Assembly (NCBI GenBank): GCA_022703155.1
Contig: JAKLEH010000003.1
Coordinates: 1 to 48,968 of the forward strand
Reading direction: 5' to 3'
Length of the DNA stretch: 48,968 bases
Origin: Patescibacteria group bacterium
GTDB lineage: Bacteria; Patescibacteriota; Patescibacteriia; 2-12-FULL-60-25
Below, piece after piece: positions 3,270 to 48,968 of the stretch. The position numbers and the translations under genes were made by a program. A model generated the notes under the pieces. The model was not told the origin of the DNA and did not search any database. It saw only the letters and a list, made by a program, of their open reading frames with translations. Every line of letters starts with the position of its first letter. Position 1 is the first letter of the stretch.

Positions 3270-3941
3270 TCACTCCGATTTCCTTTGGGATGACGTTGTT
3301 TTCAGATCTTCCAGTTTTTTTGCGTCTTCAATTTTGTACTCGCCTATTCTTGTCCTCCGCAGTTGGGTCAGGTACGCGCCGCAACCCAGTTTTTCTCCAA
3401 GGTCATGGGCCAATGACCTGATATACGTGCCGGACGAGCAGGTGACACGGAACTTCAAATCGGGCCAGGCATAATCCAACAGTTCGATGTCGCTGATGTC
3501 TACCTTCTTGGTTGGCCGCAAATGCTCCACGTCTTGGCCCGCGCGCGCCAATTCGTAGAGTTTTTGCCCTTTGACCTTCTTGGCCGAAAACGCCGGCGCT
3601 TTTTGTTCGTAACCGCCCTTGAAAGATTTCAAAACTCCCTCGACCTCGTCCCGACTCGAATCTCGAATCTCGAATCTCGAATATATCTTGCCTTCAAGAT
3701 CATACGTATCCGATGTCGCGCCCAATCTCGCCGTGGCTTCATACGTCTTATCCAGCCCCACGAGATCCGTGAGTTTTTTTGTGGATGGTCCGATGCCTAT
3801 AATCAAAAGCCCTGTGGCGAACGGATCGAGCGTGCCCGCGTGGCCCACGCGTCGGGTATTGAAAATCCGCCGCACGCGGTCCACCACGTCGTGGCTGGTC
3901 ATGCCGGCCGGTTTGTCGATCAACAATATTCCTTCCGTCAT
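3270..3941 (-). CDS. truB: tRNA pseudouridine-55 synthase TruB, short form
   Basis: TruB converts U55 in the T-loop of tRNAs to pseudouridine. The protein (223 residues from ATG 3941) has the N-terminal GILLIDKPAGMTSHDVV block, the catalytic GHAGTLDPFATG motif with Asp39, and the C-terminal SSGTYIRSLAHDLGEKLGCGA block. It ends shortly after RRTRIGEY, so the C-terminal extension of longer TruBs (about 300 residues) is absent. A GTG at 3989 would add 16 residues, but homologues begin near MTEG; neither start has a clear ribosome site. Odd point: four perfect tandem copies of a heptamer (3655-3682) lie in the coding sequence, encoding a Ser/Arg/Phe/Glu-rich insertion after EGKIY. Confidence 0.93.
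   Translation of the reverse strand: MTEGILLIDKPAGMTSHDVVDRVRRIFNTRRVGHAGTLDPFATGLLIIGIGPSTKKLTDLVGLDKTYEATARLGATSDTYDLEGKIYSRFEIRDSSRDEVEGVLKSFKGGYEQKAPAFSAKKVKGQKLYELARAGQDVEHLRPTKKVDISDIELLDYAWPDLKFRVTCSSGTYIRSLAHDLGEKLGCGAYLTQLRRTRIGEYKIEDAKKLEDLKTTSSQRKSE
3655..3682. repeat. Four tandem CTCGAAT heptamers inside truB
   Basis: CTCGAAT is repeated four times without mismatch. Loss or gain of one unit would shift the truB frame. The related word ATTCGAGATTC also occurs at about 15826 inside another gene. Confidence 0.9.
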
Positions 3942-4005
3942 ACTTAAACCGTCGATAATAATCTGGCTCAAGGAAATGTTTTTGTCCACGCCAACGACTT
4001 GAAAT

Positions 4006-4038
4006 TAAAAACGCACAGCTGAGGCGGGGTCTGTGCGT
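4006..4038 (-). terminator. Intrinsic terminator of the radical SAM/peptide unit
   Basis: Eight-base stem ACGCACAG/CTGTGCGT (4011-4018 with 4031-4038), 12-base loop, then a T run on the minus strand, 20 bases after the stop of the small cysteine-rich peptide. Confidence 0.8.
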
Positions 4039-4057: not shown

Positions 4058-4171
4058 CTAGTCCGTGCATGAGAAGCTGCAGTGGCAACAGGTATCGTCC
4101 TCGTCATCGAAGACGAAGCCCTGCGCGATCAGCGCTTCCAATGCTTCCTGGGTTTCTTGCGCGTACTTCAT
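4058..4171 (-). CDS. Candidate RiPP precursor peptide, 37 residues with C-terminal CCHCSFSC core
   Basis: A small gene easily missed because of its length. The ATG at 4171 is separated by one base from the TGA of the radical SAM gene and is preceded by AAGGAG at good spacing, so translation is coupled. Residues 1-27 look like a leader: amphipathic helix (QETQEALEALIAQG) then an acidic FDDEDD stretch. Residues 28-37 are a core with four cysteines (C28, C29, C31, C35), reading CCHCSFSCTD. Leader/core architecture beside a radical SAM/SPASM enzyme is the usual layout of a ribosomally made, post-translationally modified peptide. It is also possible that the peptide is a small metal-binding protein. 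The final structure and function are unknown. Confidence 0.8.
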   Translation of the reverse strand: MKYAQETQEALEALIAQGFVFDDEDDTCCHCSFSCTD

Positions 4172-4172
4172 G

Positions 4173-5207
4173 TCACTTCTCCTTCACTGGCACGACGGAC
4201 ATCGATGGTGCGGCGATGGGACATTGGGGATCGCGGCCAAAATGGTCGCCGGTGGCGCAATACGCCGCCGCCCGACATCCTCGACAATAATACAGGAAGC
4301 GGCAATCGGCGCAAGCTTCCAGCTTATGGATTTCCCTGAACTCGCGCAGTTTGGGACTGTGCACGAAGTGGTGCAGCAGACCACGCTCGGGCGTCCAGAC
4401 GCCCAGCGCGCTGCCCGGATGGCGTCTGCAGGCCATGAGCGTATTGTCCGGCAGCAGCGTCATGACCGAGGAGCCGATACCGCAACCTCCGCATACCCGT
4501 TGCGCCGACGGATCGCACTTCGTCGGGTTGAGTTGGGCGAGCAGCGGATCCTTTTCGATGGGTTCGTGCCCAAGCGCGTCGTATCTTTGGTGGGCGCGCG
4601 TGATGTCGACCAAAAAACGCATGTATTCAGACGGTGGGATGCCGCAATCGCCGCGTTCCGCGGGCGAGTAGCGTGCGAAAGACCATCTTGAAGCCCCGGC
4701 GCCATAAACGCTTTCCATTACGTTGGCCATCTCGTGGAAATTTTCCGACGAGACCGTGGACATGACGGTCGCGGCCACGCCGTACCCCGCGAGACGCCGA
4801 ATCGCATCCATGGTGGCCCGATGGCTTCCTGGATAGCGGATGCGGTCGTGGGTAGGCTCGAGCCCGTCGAGCGAAACCTGGTAATGCTTGATGCCCGCCG
4901 CCTTGAGGCGCGGTATGCATTCGTCGGTCAGGCCTTCGGGATTGCCCAAGACGCCGACATGTTCGCAGTGTTCCCGCGCCAAGCGCAAAATCTCCCAAAA
5001 GTCCGGGTTCATGAACGGATCGCCGCCCGTGATCGCCAAGTAAGGCTGGGCTTTCATGGCCGCGCACGTCTTATCCAGGTCTTGGAGCACGGCGCGGGCC
5101 GTAACCGGGTCCGTTTGCGGACCGTCGTAATTCCTTTGGTAACAATGTGCGCAGCGGTTGCCGCATTTGTTTGTAATGTGCCACTGGAGATAGAAACGTT
5201 TTCCCAT
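4173..5207 (-). CDS. Radical SAM/SPASM domain enzyme, candidate RiPP maturase
   Basis: 344 residues from ATG 5207, chosen because GGAGAAG lies just upstream and because the promoter at 5239-5267 excludes the longer frame. The radical SAM cluster motif CGNRCAHC (C15, C19, C22) follows LQWHITNK; TGGDP and a SLDG segment complete the SAM-binding barrel. The C-terminal third is a SPASM-type domain with many cysteines (CGGCG, MACRRHPGS, CADCRFLYYCRGC and later ones) expected to hold auxiliary Fe-S clusters. Such enzymes typically modify peptides. The only partner encoded in the transcript is the cysteine-rich 37-residue peptide one base downstream. No exporter or protease is adjacent. The Q-W-H-I-T/HCYQ signature recalls known maturases of small cysteine peptides, but I cannot place it in a named subfamily. 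Confidence 0.9.
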   Translation of the reverse strand: MGKRFYLQWHITNKCGNRCAHCYQRNYDGPQTDPVTARAVLQDLDKTCAAMKAQPYLAITGGDPFMNPDFWEILRLAREHCEHVGVLGNPEGLTDECIPRLKAAGIKHYQVSLDGLEPTHDRIRYPGSHRATMDAIRRLAGYGVAATVMSTVSSENFHEMANVMESVYGAGASRWSFARYSPAERGDCGIPPSEYMRFLVDITRAHQRYDALGHEPIEKDPLLAQLNPTKCDPSAQRVCGGCGIGSSVMTLLPDNTLMACRRHPGSALGVWTPERGLLHHFVHSPKLREFREIHKLEACADCRFLYYCRGCRAAAYCATGDHFGRDPQCPIAAPSMSVVPVKEK

Positions 5208-5238
5208 TTTTGCTTCTCCGACTGTCGCGAACGCTGAT

Positions 5239-5267
5239 ATTAGCGCATGTTTCCGGCCGAGTGTCAA
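5239..5267 (-). promoter_or_regulatory. Promoter of the radical SAM/peptide unit
   Basis: TTGACA (5262-5267), 17-base spacer, GCTAAT (5239-5244), minus strand. It gives a leader of about 25 bases before the GGAGAAG ribosome site. Confidence 0.7.
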
Positions 5268-5405: not shown

Positions 5406-6824
5406 ATGAAAACAGTCAAACCCACGCTTCCAGCCGGAGTCCGCGATTACCTGCCGGCCGAAATGATCTACAGGGACAAAGTCCTGGCCAAAATCCGCGC
5501 CATGTATGAGATTTTCGGATTCTCGCCCATCGAGACGCCGGCCATCGAACGCGAAGAGGTGCTGACGGGCGGCAAACAACTCGACATGATCATCTGGCGC
5601 ACGGCCACCAGCCGGGCGCAAGAAGGCGACGACCGCTTGGCGCTGCATTTCGATCTCACGGTTCCGCTGTCGCGCGTGGTCGCGGCCAACGGCAATTTGC
5701 CGCGGCCTTTCCGCCGCTACCAGTGCCAGAAGGTGTGGCGCGGGGAAAAGCCCCAGTCCGGACGCTATCGCGAGTTCATGCAGTTCGACGCCGACATCGT
5801 CGGCAGCTCGAGCCTGTTGGCGGATACGGAAATCGTTTGGCTCATGGTTTCGACCTTGGGCACGTTGGGTTTCTCCCGTTTCAAGGTCCGCTTTTCTACC
5901 CGCAAGGTGCTGAACGCGCTTGCCGGCATGCTGGGCCTCGAGCCCGGAAGCGACCTCGCGCGCGACCTCTTCAGGATCCTGGACAAGCAGGACAAAATCG
6001 GGCGCGACGGCGTGGCCGCCTTGCTGGGCAAAGCTTTCGTGGATCAGGCCGACCGCGACCCCAACGACCCCGACGCGACCGAAAGCGGCCTGGGTTTCGA
6101 CGAAGGCAAGCTGGACATCGTCCGTTCGTTCCTCGGGATAGGCGGCGAAACCGACCAGGTGCTCGCCAGCCTCGAGGAGTTCTTCCGGGGCCGCAGCAAG
6201 TTGGGCGAAGAGGCCGTCAGCGACCTCAAGACCATCAGCCAAGGCCTCAAGGACTTGAGCGTGGCCCAGGAAAACTGGACCGTGGACATTTCCGTGGCGC
6301 GCGGGTTGGCCTATTACACGGGCCCGGTTTTCGAGACCACTTTGTTGGACGCGCCCGAATTCGGCTCGGTCATGAGCGGCGGCCGCTACGACGACCTGGT
6401 CACGCGTTTTACCGGCGAATCCTTGCCGGCCACCGGCGCTTCCATCGGCGTGGACCGTTTGTTCGCGGCCATGGAAAAGCTCGGCATGGTCAAAGGCCGC
6501 AAGACCTCGACTCGCGTCCTGGTCACGGTCATGAATCCGGCGCTGAGCGGCAAATGCCTGGACGTTCTGCAACGCTTGCGCAAAGCCCAAATCCCGTCCG
6601 AGATCTACATGGGACCGGACATGGCCCTCAAGGCGCAAATCGCCTACGCACTCAACCAGGACGTCCCGTTCGTGGTCTTCTTGGGCCAGTCCGAAGCCGA
6701 AAAAGGCACGGTCCAGATCAAGGACACCTTCAACCGCGAACAGTTCGAGGTGCCCATGGCCGAACTGGTCGAGAAGATCGAGGAGCGCAGCCGTTTGCAC
6801 ATCCTGCAAAGGAAAGACGGCTGA
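5406..6824 (+). CDS. hisS: Histidyl-tRNA synthetase, non-canonical motif-2 type
   Basis: Class II synthetase charging tRNA-His, 472 residues, ATG preceded by GAGAGGA. Visible features: N-terminal PAGVRDYLPAE, LHFDLTVPLSR, motif 2 KVWRGEKPQSGRYREFMQFD, the histidine-specific RGLAYYTGPVFET loop (Ala where most have Asp or Glu), SGGRYDDL, motif 3 GASIGVDRL, and a C-terminal anticodon-binding domain. The motif-2 sequence, with R-G/N-E-K-P and F-M-Q-F-D-A-D following, resembles the alphaproteobacterial and eukaryotic-like HisRS rather than the E. coli type with RHERPQKGRYRQFHQ. This matters because the tRNA-His gene 50 bases downstream lacks the usual G-1:C73 identity pair. The stop TGA lies in the loop of a small GACGGC/GCCGTC hairpin. 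Confidence 0.95.
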   Translation: MKTVKPTLPAGVRDYLPAEMIYRDKVLAKIRAMYEIFGFSPIETPAIEREEVLTGGKQLDMIIWRTATSRAQEGDDRLALHFDLTVPLSRVVAANGNLPRPFRRYQCQKVWRGEKPQSGRYREFMQFDADIVGSSSLLADTEIVWLMVSTLGTLGFSRFKVRFSTRKVLNALAGMLGLEPGSDLARDLFRILDKQDKIGRDGVAALLGKAFVDQADRDPNDPDATESGLGFDEGKLDIVRSFLGIGGETDQVLASLEEFFRGRSKLGEEAVSDLKTISQGLKDLSVAQENWTVDISVARGLAYYTGPVFETTLLDAPEFGSVMSGGRYDDLVTRFTGESLPATGASIGVDRLFAAMEKLGMVKGRKTSTRVLVTVMNPALSGKCLDVLQRLRKAQIPSEIYMGPDMALKAQIAYALNQDVPFVVFLGQSEAEKGTVQIKDTFNREQFEVPMAELVEKIEERSRLHILQRKDG

Positions 6825-6835
6825 GCCGTCAGGGG

Positions 6836-6865
6836 TTGACTTTTGCGGCGGCTCGCGTGTAAGGT
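6836..6865 (+). promoter_or_regulatory. Promoter of tRNA-His
   Basis: TTGACT (6836-6841) and a poor TAAGGT (6860-6865) with an 18-base spacer, ending ten bases before the mature tRNA. Some co-transcription with hisS is also possible. Confidence 0.45.
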
Positions 6866-6874
6866 TGTATCAGC

Positions 6875-6949
6875 GGGCACGTAGCTCAATTTGGCCAGAG
6901 TGTCGGATTGTGGCTCCGAAGGTTACGGGTTCGAAGCCCGTCGTGCCCA
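6875..6949 (+). tRNA. tRNA-His (anticodon GTG), no encoded G-1, A73, no encoded CCA
   Basis: Full cloverleaf: acceptor GGGCACG/CGTGCCC, D arm 6884-6901, anticodon arm TCGGA-TTGTGGC-TCCGA (anticodon GTG at 6910-6912), T arm ACGGG-TTCGAAG-CCCGT. The base before the acceptor is C, not G, and the discriminator is A, so the usual G-1:C73 pair is absent. The 3' sequence is ACACC, so CCA must be added enzymatically. It lies directly behind hisS. Confidence 0.95.
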
Positions 6950-6958
6950 CACCCCTCC

Positions 6959-9938: not shown

Positions 9939-10103
9939 CTTGCGTTTTAATTCGCTAAAAAAATCAAGGCTTCTCCGTTGCTCGGGGGCCGTCATGGTGG
10001 TGCATGTCAATCCGTACGCCTCGCATAACCTTGGAAAGGACAAAATATCACGGAGTGCGGCCGGCGGTCAAGCCGGAACGCGGCCAACCGGCAACTTCGG
10101 CAC

Positions 10104-10131
10104 TTGACATGATGTGTTGGCTGGCTATAGT
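10104..10131 (+). promoter_or_regulatory. Promoter of the ammonia-lyase gene
   Basis: TTGACA (10104-10109), 16-base spacer, TATAGT (10126-10131). It lies inside the upstream extension of the open frame, which supports the later start at 10214. Confidence 0.75.
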
Positions 10132-10213
10132 CATGCAGTCAGCTTCCTTCGTTCGACAACTTAACTTGGTGTCGTTTGTTGTTTCGGTTGTGGTTTCGGA
10201 AGTGAGGTTTCCC

Positions 10214-11869
10214 ATGCAGACTCTCGAAAGCGTAAAGGTGAACGGCCACAGTCTGACCATCGAAGAGGTGGTCAGCGTGGCCAGATCTCATGCCAAGGTA
10301 GAGATCGACGCTGAGTCGTTCGAAAACCTTGCGAACCTGAGGGCCGGTCTGGAGGCCTGCATCAAGCGGGGAGACGTCATGTACGGCGTGAACACGGGCT
10401 GCGGCAATCGCAAGACCATCGTGTTGCCGCCGGCCGAACTCTCCGACTACCAGATGCGCTACATCCCCGCGCACTGCTGCGGCTTCGGACCCCTGTTCGA
10501 TGAAGAAGTGGTTCGCGCGGCCATGCTCATCCGGCTCAACTCCTTCCAGCGCGGGAATTCCGGTTTGCGGCCGCTCATCAGCGAGCGCTTGCGGGATTTC
10601 CTCAACTTGGGCATCACGCCCTGCATACCGCGGTACGGCTCGGTCGGAGCTTCCGGCGACCTGGTGCCTTTGGCCCATATGGCCGAAGCCATGCTCGGTT
10701 TGCCCGAAGCCTCGGTCAGCGTCCGCGAACCCGACGGTTCGCGGACCGTGATGCCGGCACCAGACGCCCTCAAACGTTTTGGGCTGGAGCCGATCGTGCT
10801 TCAGGCCAAGGAGGCCATGGGTATCACCAACGGCGCCAATTTCATCGCGGCCATCGGCTGCCTGGCCGTCTACGATGCGCGGAAGCTCTTGGACCAGGCC
10901 TGCCTGGCCACGGCCCTCTCGCTCGAAGCGATTCGCGGCGAGACCAAGGCCTTTGATCCGCGCATCCACGAAGCCCGTCCGCTCCCCGGCCAAATCCACG
11001 TCGCCGGCCTGGTGCGCGCCTTCTTGGAAGGTTCCAAGCGCACCACCGAACAGGCCCGGTCCGTGGACTTGGAAAAAGAACCGCCGAGGGTGGATCCGGC
11101 AGGCAAAACGCTGCCCAAAATGCCGCGCGTTCAGGACGCGTATTCGTTCCGTTGCGTGCCGCAGATTTTCGCCGGCGCGCACCACGCCCTGAGCCACGTC
11201 ACGGATATCCTGACGGTGGAGATCAACTCTTCGACCGACAACCCGCTCCTCTTCGTGGCGGATGGCGGTTATCAAGTCGTCTCGGGCGGTAACTTCCATG
11301 GCCAGCCGTTGGCGTCCTGCCTCGAATACCTGGGCATCGCCATGGCGCCGTTGGCCGGTTCCAGCGACCGTCGGCTCTTCGCCATGCTCTCATCCGGAAC
11401 GAGCTTCGGCCTGCCCGCCGACTTGGCTGGTCCGGTGGACGGCAATACGGGCATGATGATTCTGCAGTACGCCGGCGCCGCCCTGATCAACAAGATCGGG
11501 CACCTGGCCGCCCCGTGTTCGGTCCATAGCGTGCCGACTTCGGCCAACCAGGAAGACTGGGTCTCCATGGGCATGAACTCGGCTTTGAACCTGCGCGAGA
11601 TGCTGCCCATGGTCCGCTGGGTGTTGGCCGCGGAGATGTTGGGTGCGGCCCAGGGCATCAAGCTCACCGAAGCGCAGTTGCCCTTCGGCGAGTATCCTCT
11701 GGGCAAGGGCACGGCGGTGGCTTACGACCGCGTCTCGGCGGTGTTCTCGGCCAAGGTCGGGACCGATCCGGACGACCGGTTCCGCGACCGCAACCTGTCC
11801 GTGGACGTCGACGCCGTGGACCGACTGTTGTCCGGTGACGATCTGACCTCCGAGATCGTTGGCCCCTAG
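10214..11869 (+). CDS. Aromatic amino-acid ammonia-lyase (histidine/phenylalanine/tyrosine type, MIO enzyme)
   Basis: 551 residues. The Ala146-Ser147-Gly148 triad in GSVGASGDLVPLAH forms the MIO electrophile that eliminates ammonia from histidine or an aromatic amino acid. Also present: YGVNTGCGNRK (catalytic Tyr), IPAHCCGFG with a histidine as in histidine ammonia-lyase, KEAMGITNG, VQDAYSFRCVPQ, and NSSTDNPLLF. In the conserved region usually reading QEDHVSMG this protein has QEDWVSMG, keeping the Glu but replacing His by Trp. Start at ATG 10214 because the promoter lies just upstream and GAGG precedes it; the frame is open for 70 more codons. Alone in its unit, with no other histidine-degradation genes nearby, so a role other than the Hut pathway is possible. 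Confidence 0.9.
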   Translation: MQTLESVKVNGHSLTIEEVVSVARSHAKVEIDAESFENLANLRAGLEACIKRGDVMYGVNTGCGNRKTIVLPPAELSDYQMRYIPAHCCGFGPLFDEEVVRAAMLIRLNSFQRGNSGLRPLISERLRDFLNLGITPCIPRYGSVGASGDLVPLAHMAEAMLGLPEASVSVREPDGSRTVMPAPDALKRFGLEPIVLQAKEAMGITNGANFIAAIGCLAVYDARKLLDQACLATALSLEAIRGETKAFDPRIHEARPLPGQIHVAGLVRAFLEGSKRTTEQARSVDLEKEPPRVDPAGKTLPKMPRVQDAYSFRCVPQIFAGAHHALSHVTDILTVEINSSTDNPLLFVADGGYQVVSGGNFHGQPLASCLEYLGIAMAPLAGSSDRRLFAMLSSGTSFGLPADLAGPVDGNTGMMILQYAGAALINKIGHLAAPCSVHSVPTSANQEDWVSMGMNSALNLREMLPMVRWVLAAEMLGAAQGIKLTEAQLPFGEYPLGKGTAVAYDRVSAVFSAKVGTDPDDRFRDRNLSVDVDAVDRLLSGDDLTSEIVGP

Positions 11870-43423: not shown

Positions 43424-46400
43424 ATGGCTTCACTATCCACGCCCTTTCTCGTGAAGGGCTCAAGTGGGAAGCGAATTTTTAATTTGCTCTCCGCTACTTT
43501 TTTTATCTTGGCGGCTTTGATGCTGTTCAGGCCCACGCCGACGTACGCGGCTACGTGTACGGCCGCGGCGTCCGGCAATTGGAACACGGTCGGAACTTGG
43601 TCGTGTGGCCATGTGCCGACCTACGCCGACGTGTGCAACATAAGCGGCGGCGCGACCACGACCGTGGACACGGCTTCGGCCGTGTGCAGTTCGTTGACCA
43701 TCGGCAACACCAATGGCATTGCGGCTTTGGTCTTCAATAACGGTTCGGTTTTGTCCGTCAGTTCCACTACCATAGGCGGCGCTGGAAGCAGAAGCGGTAG
43801 GGTCAATATGGCGGCCGGCGGTACCTTCAAGATCGGTACCACTTTCACGTTGACCAAAGCGGCGCCGAATCCATGGACTCGAGGCACGGGTACGGTCGAA
43901 TACAACGGTACCGCGGCCCAAACCGTGAATACGACGTTTTTTACGTCTTACAACAATTTGACGTTTTCCAATAGCGGTACAAAAACTACACCCGCCGGTA
44001 CGATTACGGTTTACGGCAACTGGGACGTGACCAATGCCACGGCAGCGTTGAACACAAACAACACGAGTTTGACCATCACCGGTAACGTTACGGGCAGCGG
44101 AGGAACCATTACGTCCGGCTCCGGAACCATTTCGCTTGGCGGCAACTGGACCAACAGTGGTACGTTCAACGCGGATTCCGGCACGGTCAATTATTCCAAG
44201 ACGTCGGGCGGCCAGACGGTTGGCGGTTTGACGTACAACAACCTGACTTTGAGCAACACCAGCGCCACGAATACGGCGAGCGGTGCGGTGGTCGTGAACG
44301 GCACGTTGACCACTACGGCCGGCGGCGCCTTGAATTTGGCAACTTATGCGCTGTCCGGAACGTTGGGCACGATAACCAACAACGGCACCTTGGAAACGCA
44401 AAACACTTCGGCCGCGCCCCTTCCCGCCAGCAAGACTTGGGGCGGAACGGTCGTATTCGACGGGGCGGCGGCCCAAAGCGTGGCCACCTCGACTTTCAAC
44501 AACCTGACGGTCAACAATTCCAACGGTCTGTCCATTACCGGCGACATAACGGTGAACGGCCTTTTGAACATAGTGACCGCCAACCCTTCGGCCAGCATGG
44601 GCGCCATCGATACGGGCGCGCACCGCGTGATCATGGGTTCGCTTTCCACGACACTGGGTCTCGGAGAGGTCACAGGCAACGTGTTCCGGGCCGGGCCTTT
44701 TTCCTCGGCCCACGATTATTCTTTCGGCGGACAATATACGCTCTTCAATTTTCCGGGCAGCAGCGCGGTCACCAACATCAACCTCAAATTGACGCGCGGC
44801 ACGGCTCCGGCCTGGAAGACCGACGCGGTCAAACGGCAGTATGATTTGACCCTGACGCCGGGCGTAGGTTCCAGCATGGGCTTGATGTCCTTGCATTATT
44901 TCGATTCCGAACTCAACGGCAATGCCGAAGATCGTTTGGCGATATGGAAATACGACGGTTCGCTTTCGGAAGTCGGCCGGGCCTCGCACGACACAAGCAT
45001 CAATCTGGTGACGTTCGGCCCCAGCGACTTTTCTGGACTTTCCGGCACCAGTTTGGGCTTGGCCACCACGTCGCAAGAGTACTACACCTGGGACGGTTCG
45101 GCGGATACGGATTGGTACAACGATAACAATTGGGACGGGAATTCGACGCCCACCACCACCAGCAACGTCATCATTCCTGATGCCGCGACCACGCCCAACG
45201 ACCCGGCGGTGCCGGCTTCGGGAGTGACCATAAAAACCATCGAAATTCAATCCGGAGGCGTTTTGAACACGGCCAGCGGTTACACCCTGACGTTGACCGG
45301 AGGCAGCGCGTCGCCCCCGTCGTTGGCCGCATGGGACAGCCATGGGACCTTCAATTCGCCCACGGGGACCGTGGTGTTTACAGGCAACCAAGCTTCGTTT
45401 GCCGGGACCGCGGATTTCAACAACGTGACCATCGCGCCGGGCGCCACGCTGTACAACCGCTTGGGTTCGACCATGCGTATTTCCGGCACCTTGACCAACG
45501 GGGGAACGTGGTATCCGGCTTTCGCCCTGAACAATACGGTCGAATACAACGGCGGCAACCAAACCGTGGTAGAACCTAACGGTACGGTCGTGGGTTACAA
45601 AAACTTGACTATTGGCGGCACCGGGACCAAAACCCTGCCCGCCACTTTGACGGTCGCTGGCGATTTCACCAACAACGGCAACCCGGATTTTACGGGCAAC
45701 ACTTTGGTGTTGAGCGGAACTACCGATCAAAATTTGGGCGGCACGGGTTCGCTGGCGTTCAACAATCTGACTTTGAATGACGCTGGCTACAGGGTGAATG
45801 CGGGCAAGAACATCAGCGTGGCGGGCGACCTGGTTTTGTCCACGAGTTCGACTTTGGACATGGCCACGTACGATCTGACCTCGTTGGGCGCCGTTTCCGG
45901 CAATGGAACGCTCGAAACCGCGTCGGTTTCCGGTTCGCCGCTACCTAGCGGCAAAACCTGGACCGGGACCGTGTCGTACGTGTCAGTGCCAGGCGGCCAA
46001 ACCGTGGTCTCGGGCACCTACAACAACCTGACCGTGAACCAAGGCGGCAGCGCCGCGACGTTGGGCGGCGACGTGACCGTGGGTGGAGTCCTTGATTTGG
46101 CCGCGGGCGTGGTGACCACGGGCGGCAATGCGGTTTACGTCAACTCGACAGGCAATACGATCCGCACAACGGGACGCGTCAACGGCAGTCTTAAAAAATA
46201 CGTGGCGACGGGCGCGACCAGCAAAACGTTCGAAATCGGCGACGCTTCGTATTACGCTCCGGTCAGCGTTTCGTTCGGCAACGTTTCCGTGGCCGGAGAT
46301 TTGACCATCAAAACCACGGCCAACGACCATCCTGCCATCGCCAGTTCGCAAATCAGCGTCGCCAAAAGCGTGAATCGCTATTGGTCGGCCACCAATACCG

Positions 46401-48968
46401 GAATAACCTTCGACAACTACAGCGCCGTATTCAATTTCGATACCGCCGATAAGGATATCGGTTCGGATGCCAGCAGATACCTGGTTGGAAAATATTCTGT
46501 CGGCGCTTGGTCTTATCCTTCGGTCGGAACCAAGAACGCGAACGACACCCAAGTGACGGGCTTGACCGGATTTAGCGATTTCCAAATCGGCGAATCGTCC
46601 ATCGATTACGCGGCGTTGGCCGTGGCCGCGGACAAGGCCGCCCTTTCGGCCAACGACATCAAGGGCGGGAACGCGGACTTGTCGCACGTCACCACGACTT
46701 TGACCAACCCGCTGCCTTCCATAGGCTCGGCGTCCGGTTCGGCCATAGCTTGGGCGTCAGACGCCACCTCGACCGTTTCCGACGACGGCCAAACCATCAA
46801 CCGTCCCATCTACTCGGCCGGCGACGCCACGGTCCACATGGCCGCCACTTTCACCTCGAGCACGGCTTCCACGACCACGGTCTTCGATTTGACGGTCCTC
46901 AAGCTCCCGGCCAGCACCGACGCCAAGGTCACTTCCGGCGTGTATACGGTATCCGGCGGCTCTGGTCCGGCCGAGACGGTCACCAACGTGCCGTTTGGCG
47001 TTTCGTCCTCGACCTTCCTTGGAAACTTGTCCAAATCCGAATCGCACTCGACTTGGGATATTTCAGGAATACACAATCCGGTTTTGACCGGCGATGCCTT
47101 GGTCGTGACGGCCGAGGACGGGGTCACGCAAATCACGTACACGGTGACGGTTCTTCCTGACCCGGCTTTTGCCGCCGTGGCCGCGGACAAGGCCGCCCTT
47201 TCGGCCAACGACATCCGCGACGCCAACCCCGACTTGGCGCACGTCACGGTGCATTTGGCAAACCCGTTGCCGTCCATCGGGTCAGCGTCGGGTTCGGCCA
47301 TCGCCTGGGCCTCTGACGCCACCTCGACGGTCTCTAACGACGGCCAGACCATCAACCGTCCCATCTACTCGGCCGGCGACGCCACGGTCCACATGACCGC
47401 CACTTTCACCTCGAGCACGGCTTCCACGACCACGGTCTTCGATTTGACCGTGCTCAAGCTTCCGGCCAGCACCGACGCCAAGGTGACTTCGGGCGTGTAT
47501 ACGGTATCCGGCGGCTCTGGTCCGGCCGAGACGGTCACCAACGTGCCGTTCAACACCTCGAAGGCCACGTTCGAAGGCAACCTGTCCAAATCCGAATCCC
47601 ACTCGAGTTGGAACGACGCGGGCATCCACAATCCCGTGGTCAGCGGCGACACGCTGGTCGTGACGGCCGAGGACGGGGTCACGCAAATCACGTACACGGT
47701 GACGGTTCTTCCTGACTATGCCGGTGCAGCCGTGGCCGCGGACAAGGCGGCTTTAGTGGCCAATGACATCAAGGGCGCGAACCTCAATCTTTCTAACGTC
47801 ACAACGACTTTGACCAATCCGCTTCCGTCCATCGGTTCAGCATCCGGCTCTGCCATCACCTGGCTTTCGGACGCCACGGGTACGGTCTCCAACGACGGTC
47901 AGACGGTTAATCGCCCTGCGTTTTCGGTCGGCGACGCCACGGTACACATGACAGCCACCATCGCGTCGAGCACTGCCTCTGACACAAAGGTGTTTACCCT
48001 CACGGTTTTGAAACTCCCTGTCAGTACGGATGCTAAGGTGACTTCCGGATCTTATATGGTTAGCGGCGGCTCTGGTCCGGCCGAAACCATCGTCAACGTG
48101 CCGTTTGGAACGGCCAAAACCACCTTTCTCGCAAACCTGACCAAGAGCGAGTCGCATTCTTCCTGGAACAGCGCTGGAATCAACGATCCCGTACTCACCG
48201 GCGACACCTTGATTGTCACGGCAGAGGACGGGGTTACAACAATAACCTACACTGTTACCGTTGGTTCGAATCCGGCGATCGCGGCCGTGGCCGCGGACAA
48301 GGCGGCTTTGATTGACAACGACATCCGCGACGCCAACCCCGACTTGGCCCACGTTACGGTCCATCTTGCCAATCCGTTGCCGGCATTGGGCTCGGCTAGC
48401 GGCTCTACGATTACTTGGGCGTCGGACGTAACGGGAACCGTCTCTAACGATGGCCAGACCATCAACCGTCCCATCTACTCCGCTGGCGACGCCACGGTCC
48501 ACATGACGGCCACCATCGCTTCCAGCACGGTTTCGGACACGAAAGTGTTCGCGTTGACCGTGCTCAAGCTTCCGGCCAGCACGGACGCCAAGGTGACTTC
48601 GGGCGCGTATACGGTATCCGGCGGCTCTGGTCCGGCCGAGACGGTCACCAACGTGCCGTACGGAACGGCCAAAGCCGCGTTCGAAGGCAACCTCTCGAAA
48701 TCCGAGTCGCATTCGACCTGGAACGACGCGGGCATCCACAATCCGGTGGTCAGCGGCGACACGCTGGTCGTGACGGCCGAGGACGGGGTCACGCAAATCA
48801 CGTACACGATTACAGTCAATCCGGACGTCACGCCCCCGGCCATCTCGGGCATCGGCGCCACTCCGTCCGATACCGGTGCGTCCATCCATTGGACCACGGA
48901 CGAACTCGCTTCGACCAAGGTGATTTACGGCGCCGATCTCTCATACTCCTTGGCTACCACGGAAACCG
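43424..48968 (+). CDS. Giant surface protein, 5' 1848 codons (continues beyond window)
   Basis: Open from ATG 43424 to the window edge without a stop. Signal peptide LLSATFFILAALMLFRPTPT with cleavage near YAA. The first about 1050 residues are Gly/Asn/Thr-rich, with many NNLTLSN, GTLETQNTSA and NGTLTTTAGG units like the beta-helix repeats of adhesins, plus a WDGSADTDWYNDNNWDGN segment. Then four 185-residue units (from 46622), each with a bacterial Ig-like part (ADKAALSANDIKGGN, TINRPIYSAGDATVHM) and a second part (STDAKVTSGVYTVSGGSG, AEDGVTQITYTVTV). The final visible part (PPAISGIGATPSDTGASIHW) looks like a fibronectin III-type domain. Likely attachment to another cell; no stop visible. 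Confidence 0.9.
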   Translation, partial: MASLSTPFLVKGSSGKRIFNLLSATFFILAALMLFRPTPTYAATCTAAASGNWNTVGTWSCGHVPTYADVCNISGGATTTVDTASAVCSSLTIGNTNGIAALVFNNGSVLSVSSTTIGGAGSRSGRVNMAAGGTFKIGTTFTLTKAAPNPWTRGTGTVEYNGTAAQTVNTTFFTSYNNLTFSNSGTKTTPAGTITVYGNWDVTNATAALNTNNTSLTITGNVTGSGGTITSGSGTISLGGNWTNSGTFNADSGTVNYSKTSGGQTVGGLTYNNLTLSNTSATNTASGAVVVNGTLTTTAGGALNLATYALSGTLGTITNNGTLETQNTSAAPLPASKTWGGTVVFDGAAAQSVATSTFNNLTVNNSNGLSITGDITVNGLLNIVTANPSASMGAIDTGAHRVIMGSLSTTLGLGEVTGNVFRAGPFSSAHDYSFGGQYTLFNFPGSSAVTNINLKLTRGTAPAWKTDAVKRQYDLTLTPGVGSSMGLMSLHYFDSELNGNAEDRLAIWKYDGSLSEVGRASHDTSINLVTFGPSDFSGLSGTSLGLATTSQEYYTWDGSADTDWYNDNNWDGNSTPTTTSNVIIPDAATTPNDPAVPASGVTIKTIEIQSGGVLNTASGYTLTLTGGSASPPSLAAWDSHGTFNSPTGTVVFTGNQASFAGTADFNNVTIAPGATLYNRLGSTMRISGTLTNGGTWYPAFALNNTVEYNGGNQTVVEPNGTVVGYKNLTIGGTGTKTLPATLTVAGDFTNNGNPDFTGNTLVLSGTTDQNLGGTGSLAFNNLTLNDAGYRVNAGKNISVAGDLVLSTSSTLDMATYDLTSLGAVSGNGTLETASVSGSPLPSGKTWTGTVSYVSVPGGQTVVSGTYNNLTVNQGGSAATLGGDVTVGGVLDLAAGVVTTGGNAVYVNSTGNTIRTTGRVNGSLKKYVATGATSKTFEIGDASYYAPVSVSFGNVSVAGDLTIKTTANDHPAIASSQISVAKSVNRYWSATNTGITFDNYSAVFNFDTADKDIGSDASRYLVGKYSVGAWSYPSVGTKNANDTQVTGLTGFSDFQIGESSIDYAALAVAADKAALSANDIKGGNADLSHVTTTLTNPLPSIGSASGSAIAWASDATSTVSDDGQTINRPIYSAGDATVHMAATFTSSTASTTTVFDLTVLKLPASTDAKVTSGVYTVSGGSGPAETVTNVPFGVSSSTFLGNLSKSESHSTWDISGIHNPVLTGDALVVTAEDGVTQITYTVTVLPDPAFAAVAADKAALSANDIRDANPDLAHVTVHLANPLPSIGSASGSAIAWASDATSTVSNDGQTINRPIYSAGDATVHMTATFTSSTASTTTVFDLTVLKLPASTDAKVTSGVYTVSGGSGPAETVTNVPFNTSKATFEGNLSKSESHSSWNDAGIHNPVVSGDTLVVTAEDGVTQITYTVTVLPDYAGAAVAADKAALVANDIKGANLNLSNVTTTLTNPLPSIGSASGSAITWLSDATGTVSNDGQTVNRPAFSVGDATVHMTATIASSTASDTKVFTLTVLKLPVSTDAKVTSGSYMVSGGSGPAETIVNVPFGTAKTTFLANLTKSESHSSWNSAGINDPVLTGDTLIVTAEDGVTTITYTVTVGSNPAIAAVAADKAALIDNDIRDANPDLAHVTVHLANPLPALGSASGSTITWASDVTGTVSNDGQTINRPIYSAGDATVHMTATIASSTVSDTKVFALTVLKLPASTDAKVTSGAYTVSGGSGPAETVTNVPYGTAKAAFEGNLSKSESHSTWNDAGIHNPVVSGDTLVVTAEDGVTQITYTITVNPDVTPPAISGIGATPSDTGASIHWTTDELASTKVIYGADLSYSLATTET
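46622..48841 (+). repeat. Four direct repeats with an exact 555-bp period
   Basis: The word GTGGCCGCGGACAAG begins at 46622, 47177, 47732 and 48287, spaced exactly 555 bp (185 codons). Parts of the units are nearly identical in DNA, for example CCCATCTACTC and TCCGGCGGCTCTGGTCCGGC blocks. Confidence 0.92.

Follow-up and report, generated by a model that had tools for sequence, protein, structure and literature searches.

Two adjoining genes in the window (the whole analyzed stretch of 48,968 nucleotides) almost certainly encode a peptide maturase and its precursor, whatever the chemistry that links them. The cassette is a deeply branching new variant of the sparsely studied ACGX/SbtM-type peptide modification, not a wholly new system. 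The RiPPs of CPR-type bacteria have hardly been charted; a 2022 report already described graspetides there (PMC8939145), and we found no description of ACGX-type cassettes in these bacteria in the literature searched. The genomes considered here are provisionally counted as CPR because of their size and completeness and the many small genomes in the class.

A two-gene locus

The gene coordinates (Table 1), the single nucleotide that separates the enzyme's stop from the downstream peptide gene, the radical SAM motif CGNRCAHC and the core CCHCSFSC were all recovered from the sequence exactly as originally predicted. So was a ribosome-binding site for each gene: purine-rich GGAG lies ahead of 5207 and purine-rich AGGAG ahead of 4171, the latter within the 3' end of the enzyme gene. 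A longer enzyme of 396 aa, starting from 5363, was rejected, as the closest homologue begins with MSKRFYLQWH and the ribosome-binding site fits the start at 5207.

The pair had also been assigned its own terminator and promoter. The terminator stands in part: the hairpin (stem ACGCACAG/CTGTGCGT) and its T tract are evident by eye and by folding, but its stability is not exceptional against shuffled sequences (z of -1.3), and a simple scan restricted to loops of 3-8 nt did not list it. The promoter is weaker than had been stated: TTGACA (5267-5262) and TAATAT (5242-5237) are 19 nt apart, and a consensus scan with 16-18 nt spacing found none. Two neighbors were identified by reading the sequence, a truB-like gene (3270-3989) on the same strand past the terminator and a divergent hisS (5406-6824); a two-gene transcript is therefore plausible. 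The GC content of the enzyme gene (60.6%) is close to that of the window (58.4%), so composition bears no mark of recent transfer.

Table 1. Features of the cassette in the window and methyltransferase genes near the homologous pairs of class relatives
Feature	Position	Strand	Basis
Predicted radical SAM/SPASM peptide maturase, 344 aa	4173..5207	-	sequence, profile matches, alignment, model
Predicted precursor peptide, 37 aa	4058..4171	-	reading frame, conservation, co-occurrence
Intrinsic-terminator-like hairpin, 8-bp stem, 12-nt loop, T5	4006..4038	-	inspection and folding
Possible weak promoter, TTGACA / 19 nt / TAATAT	5237..5267	-	read from sequence
Methyltransferase	L015 6193-6705		
Methyltransferase, TehB-like	L016 10367-11068		
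Methyltransferase	L017 8425-9084		
Methyltransferase	L018 11100-11759		
Methyltransferase, TehB-like	L019 3883-5265		
Methyltransferase	L020 2214-2831		
Methyltransferase, TehB-like	L022 2099-2713		

The enzyme and its relationship to known maturases

A SPASM radical SAM enzyme requires a CX3CX2C motif and seven SPASM cysteines, and this enzyme has both (C15, C19 and C22; C242, C260, C299, C302, C308, C311 and C329). In an alignment of 12 sequences, the three radical SAM cysteines and six SPASM cysteines are invariant, and C311 is nearly so. Pfam detects the Radical_SAM domain at 6.7e-21, and the SPASM model scores below its cut-off (13.2 versus 21.5 bits). The AlphaFold2 model (pLDDT 87.9) matches the solved structures of SkfB, SuiB, PqqE, ChlB, anSME and the sactipeptide-type enzyme 5why; as modeled, the enzyme thus resembles RiPP maturases (SkfB, SuiB, ChlB and 5why). 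It starts only a few residues ahead of the barrel and therefore has no N-terminal RRE-like extension.

The original prediction did not recognize the peptide core as belonging to any of the named families. Profile scores and the tree place the enzyme in the ACGX/SbtM neighborhood. Its best NCBIfam match is TIGR04340 (rSAM_ACGX), at 238.7 bits against a cut-off of 400. It is followed by TIGR04082 (SbtM), at 173 bits against a cut-off of 350, where the match begins at position 199 of the 516-position profile. Scores against SkfB (55.2 bits, cut-off 300) and PapB (43.2 bits, cut-off 340) also fall below threshold, and StsB scores 50. Two class relatives clear the ACGX cut-off (L009, 433 bits; L011, 449 bits), which neither the window enzyme nor its closest relative, L008, reaches. 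In the tree, these last two form a deep pair (100/100) within an 11-row clade that includes two AcgM-type enzymes (100/99) and stands apart from four outgroup enzymes. The window enzyme thus groups with AcgM at the level of the clade, and its pair lies outside the 7-row subgroup that contains AcgM. Judged from sequence, it belongs to a divergent subgroup of the ACGX/SbtM neighborhood, outside TIGR04340 membership.

The likeness to the ACGX system (enzyme AcgM, peptide AcgA) comprises the best family match, the common clade, a short Cys-rich peptide adjoining the enzyme and a C-x3-C step (CSFSC here, CGTAC in AcgA). However, annotated AcgA has ACGTACGAG repeats, which the core CCHCSFSC lacks, and its cysteines are flanked by G and A rather than by H, S and F. 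The ACGX peptide is also encoded upstream of its enzyme, not downstream as here, and carries an N-terminal Trp motif; furthermore, the nitroreductase-family gene that follows in the Roseburia and Subdoligranulum ACGX loci is missing here. SbtM, whose characterized member targets Cys (or Sec) in its partner peptide, has a profile that the enzyme matches along all of the radical SAM and SPASM regions, although some 195 N-terminal residues are missing from the 344-aa enzyme and the peptide gene has no in-frame TGA (Sec). This system has the SPASM fold and a Cys-rich precursor in common with the maturases of sactipeptides and ranthipeptides (SkfB, PapB and related enzymes), but their sequence scores are low and the N-terminal RRE-like extension is absent here.

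The peptide and its association with the enzyme

The 37-aa peptide (MKYAQETQEALEALIAQGFVFDDEDDTCCHCSFSCTD) consists of an acidic, leader-like segment (MKYAQETQEALEALIAQGFVFDDEDD) and the Cys core TCCHCSFSCTD, with Asp/Glu ahead of the core and Ser/Thr beside the cysteines. Searches of Pfam and NCBIfam with the peptides gave nothing informative, and this one matches no family. That, and a length of only 37 codons, would suit a spurious reading frame or a peptide that is not the substrate of the enzyme. We consider this extremely improbable, given a ribosome-binding site of its own, a conserved partner in L008 and Cys-rich reading frames at all class homologues.

The closest enzyme relative, L008 (genome G507; another family of the same class), is 58% identical and is likewise followed by a peptide, MIKMKTEKRIDEVLSKLLHQGFIFDESADTCCHCSFTCTTD, with the core TCCHCSFTC. 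In and around DTCCHCSFxCT, the two aligned coding sequences differ by a single replacement (S to T) and by six codon changes that are silent or partly silent; dS is saturated for this pair, hence no dN/dS ratio is given. The predicted constraint on the core cysteines is borne out by their conservation amid silent codon changes, and CHCSF keeps its H, S and F as well.

All nine class loci, that of the window included, have one and only one Cys-rich small ORF (at least four Cys in the last 30 residues; chance expectation 0.031 per 600 same-strand nt) next to the enzyme gene on the same strand, as expected of the proposed RiPP pairing. With the eight non-window loci taken as independent, the probability of this by chance is about 1e-12, which is overstated, since the loci are related by descent. 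Recent copying alone cannot explain the pairing, because the cores differ so much between loci. At the other seven class loci (L007, L009-L013 and L022; 36-43% enzyme identity), the peptides lie upstream of the enzyme, for example, ...CNCGGGCNVECGGE and ...DPCSCTGCTDWD, whereas ours lies downstream. Most of these share with the window peptide a core spacing of about C-x-C-x2-3-C. The window pair is set apart by its CCHC core, and the leaders of the others carry an N-terminal aromatic-Trp motif that is absent from the 37-aa peptide.

Several further loci were seen in passing. The enzyme frame in genome G764 (L022, 1455-2054) is short, at 199 aa, with homology stopping near query residue 152, and the peptide and methyltransferase genes beside it look whole; this frame is decayed or misassembled. 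On a contig labeled as viral (L025), a distant radical SAM/SPASM enzyme precedes a 40-aa peptide (4328-4450) that ends in CKGKWCFGCTNCNCN, perhaps another maturase–precursor pair. In Methanoregula (L004, 5063-5236), a 57-aa peptide ending in ITCSKCHHCR is encoded directly downstream of an outgroup radical SAM/SPASM enzyme.

Proposed chemistry

The gene pair, the co-occurrence, the Cys conservation, the cluster-binding residues and the clade rest on data. As for the reaction, we tentatively favor, by analogy with SbtM, oxidation of core cysteines to thiooxazole-type groups. The enzyme would recognize the acidic leader of the peptide, cleave SAM at its CX3CX2C cluster and oxidize cysteines of CCHCSFSC, with two auxiliary Fe-S clusters helping, presumably in electron flow. 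The most likely product would carry one or more Cys-derived thiooxazole-type heterocycles. Such a small sulfur-rich peptide would probably act as a soft-metal binder or as a redox or detoxification agent.

This oxidation is rated likeliest because, of the nearby families, only SbtM has a characterized peptide chemistry. Its Cys substrate loses four hydrogens and becomes a thiooxazole (PMC11002830), and the modified substrate absorbs at about 305 nm, as do thiooxazole peptides; the latter are products of other enzymes and bind copper (PMC12668002). The ACGX and SbtM scores, compared with those of SkfB and PapB, count in favor. On the other hand, scores below both the ACGX and the SbtM cut-offs, the missing N-terminal part of SbtM and Cys-flanking residues that differ from those of AcgA count against it. 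The chemistry may also have drifted, as L008 alone reaches 58% enzyme identity and all other relatives stay under 45%. We saw no gene with a link to metals next to the pair.

The original prediction expected thioether or other cross-links, an expectation that is corrected by the nearest characterized enzyme, SbtM, being a thiooxazole producer (PMC11002830). A thioether RiPP, in which the sulfur of a core Cys is linked to a carbon of a neighboring residue as in sactipeptides or ranthipeptides (2 Da lost with each link), now appears somewhat unlikely. It would agree with the enzyme's fold and domain, which SkfB and 5why, both sactipeptide-type maturases, also have, with the acidic residues ahead of the core and the Ser/Thr beside its cysteines, and with the fact that ranthipeptide synthase genes adjoin Cys-rich precursor genes (PMC11002830). 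However, sacti- and ranthipeptide maturase models score far lower (StsB at 50 bits, with SkfB and PapB on either side), and the enzyme starts too close to its barrel for an RRE-like extension. Another radical reaction on the peptide—for example, a C-C cross-link involving His or Phe, epimerization or decarboxylation, with the cysteines mainly binding metal—is decidedly unlikely: the H, S and F are kept in the closest pair and we found no description of ACGX chemistry in the literature searched, but the wider clade shares the spacing of the cysteines and not the His or Phe.

The thiooxazole-versus-thioether question for ACGX-group enzymes is made directly testable by this minimal maturase–substrate pair of 344 and 37 residues, which belongs to a SPASM group in which, as far as we found, peptide chemistry is known for one neighboring family only. 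The earlier suggestions of a toxic or signaling role and of an unlinked exporter are unsupported guesses.

Methyltransferases and distribution

A class I methyltransferase gene is close to the radical SAM–peptide pair in seven of the eight class relatives and is clearly TehB-like in three (Table 1), which suggests a methylation step in these relatives, perhaps on sulfur. Identities are 40-64% among the proteins of L017, L018 and L020 and 44-74% among those of L016, L019 and L022. No methyltransferase gene adjoins the window pair, and the relatives' methyltransferases have no real match in the window.

The cassette is absent from 40 other genomes of the same family. It is present in eight of 381 genomes sampled from the class (that of the window counted) and in two of 380 from the phylum; at the level of orders, it occurs in 3/98 genomes of the order of G507 and 1/86 of the order of G275. 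This scattered distribution suggests a sporadic cassette that spread horizontally. Nor are relatives confined to ultrasmall genomes, as had been implied: they also occur in Roseburia and Subdoligranulum (Firmicutes; AcgM) and in a Pacearchaeote. Viral contigs hold one relative at 27% identity (L025, used as an outgroup only) and weaker ones. Two genus mates with a close HisS homologue (71-74%) were compared as potential empty sites, and truB is absent from about 1.5 kb on either side.

A broader reading, which we consider unlikely, would unite the CCHCSFSC pair with its class relatives in a RiPP class of small-genome bacteria that is so far undescribed. Here, an ACGX/SbtM-type enzyme would act on a C-x-C-x3-C core to install thiooxazole-type groups, and a TehB-like methyltransferase would often add S-methylation; the resulting peptides would bind soft metals and be passed on horizontally.

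Other observations in the window

The hisS gene lies directly ahead of a tRNA-His gene at 6875-6950 (together 5406-6950). A close HisS homologue was detected in only two of eight other genus members; hisS itself may be patchy in the genus. An ORF at 10004-11869 resembles histidine ammonia-lyase by eye, which is surprising for a reduced genome of 1.2 Mb. Finally, an ORF of at least 1848 aa with repeated modules (43424-48967), which extends past the window edge, probably encodes a large surface protein.
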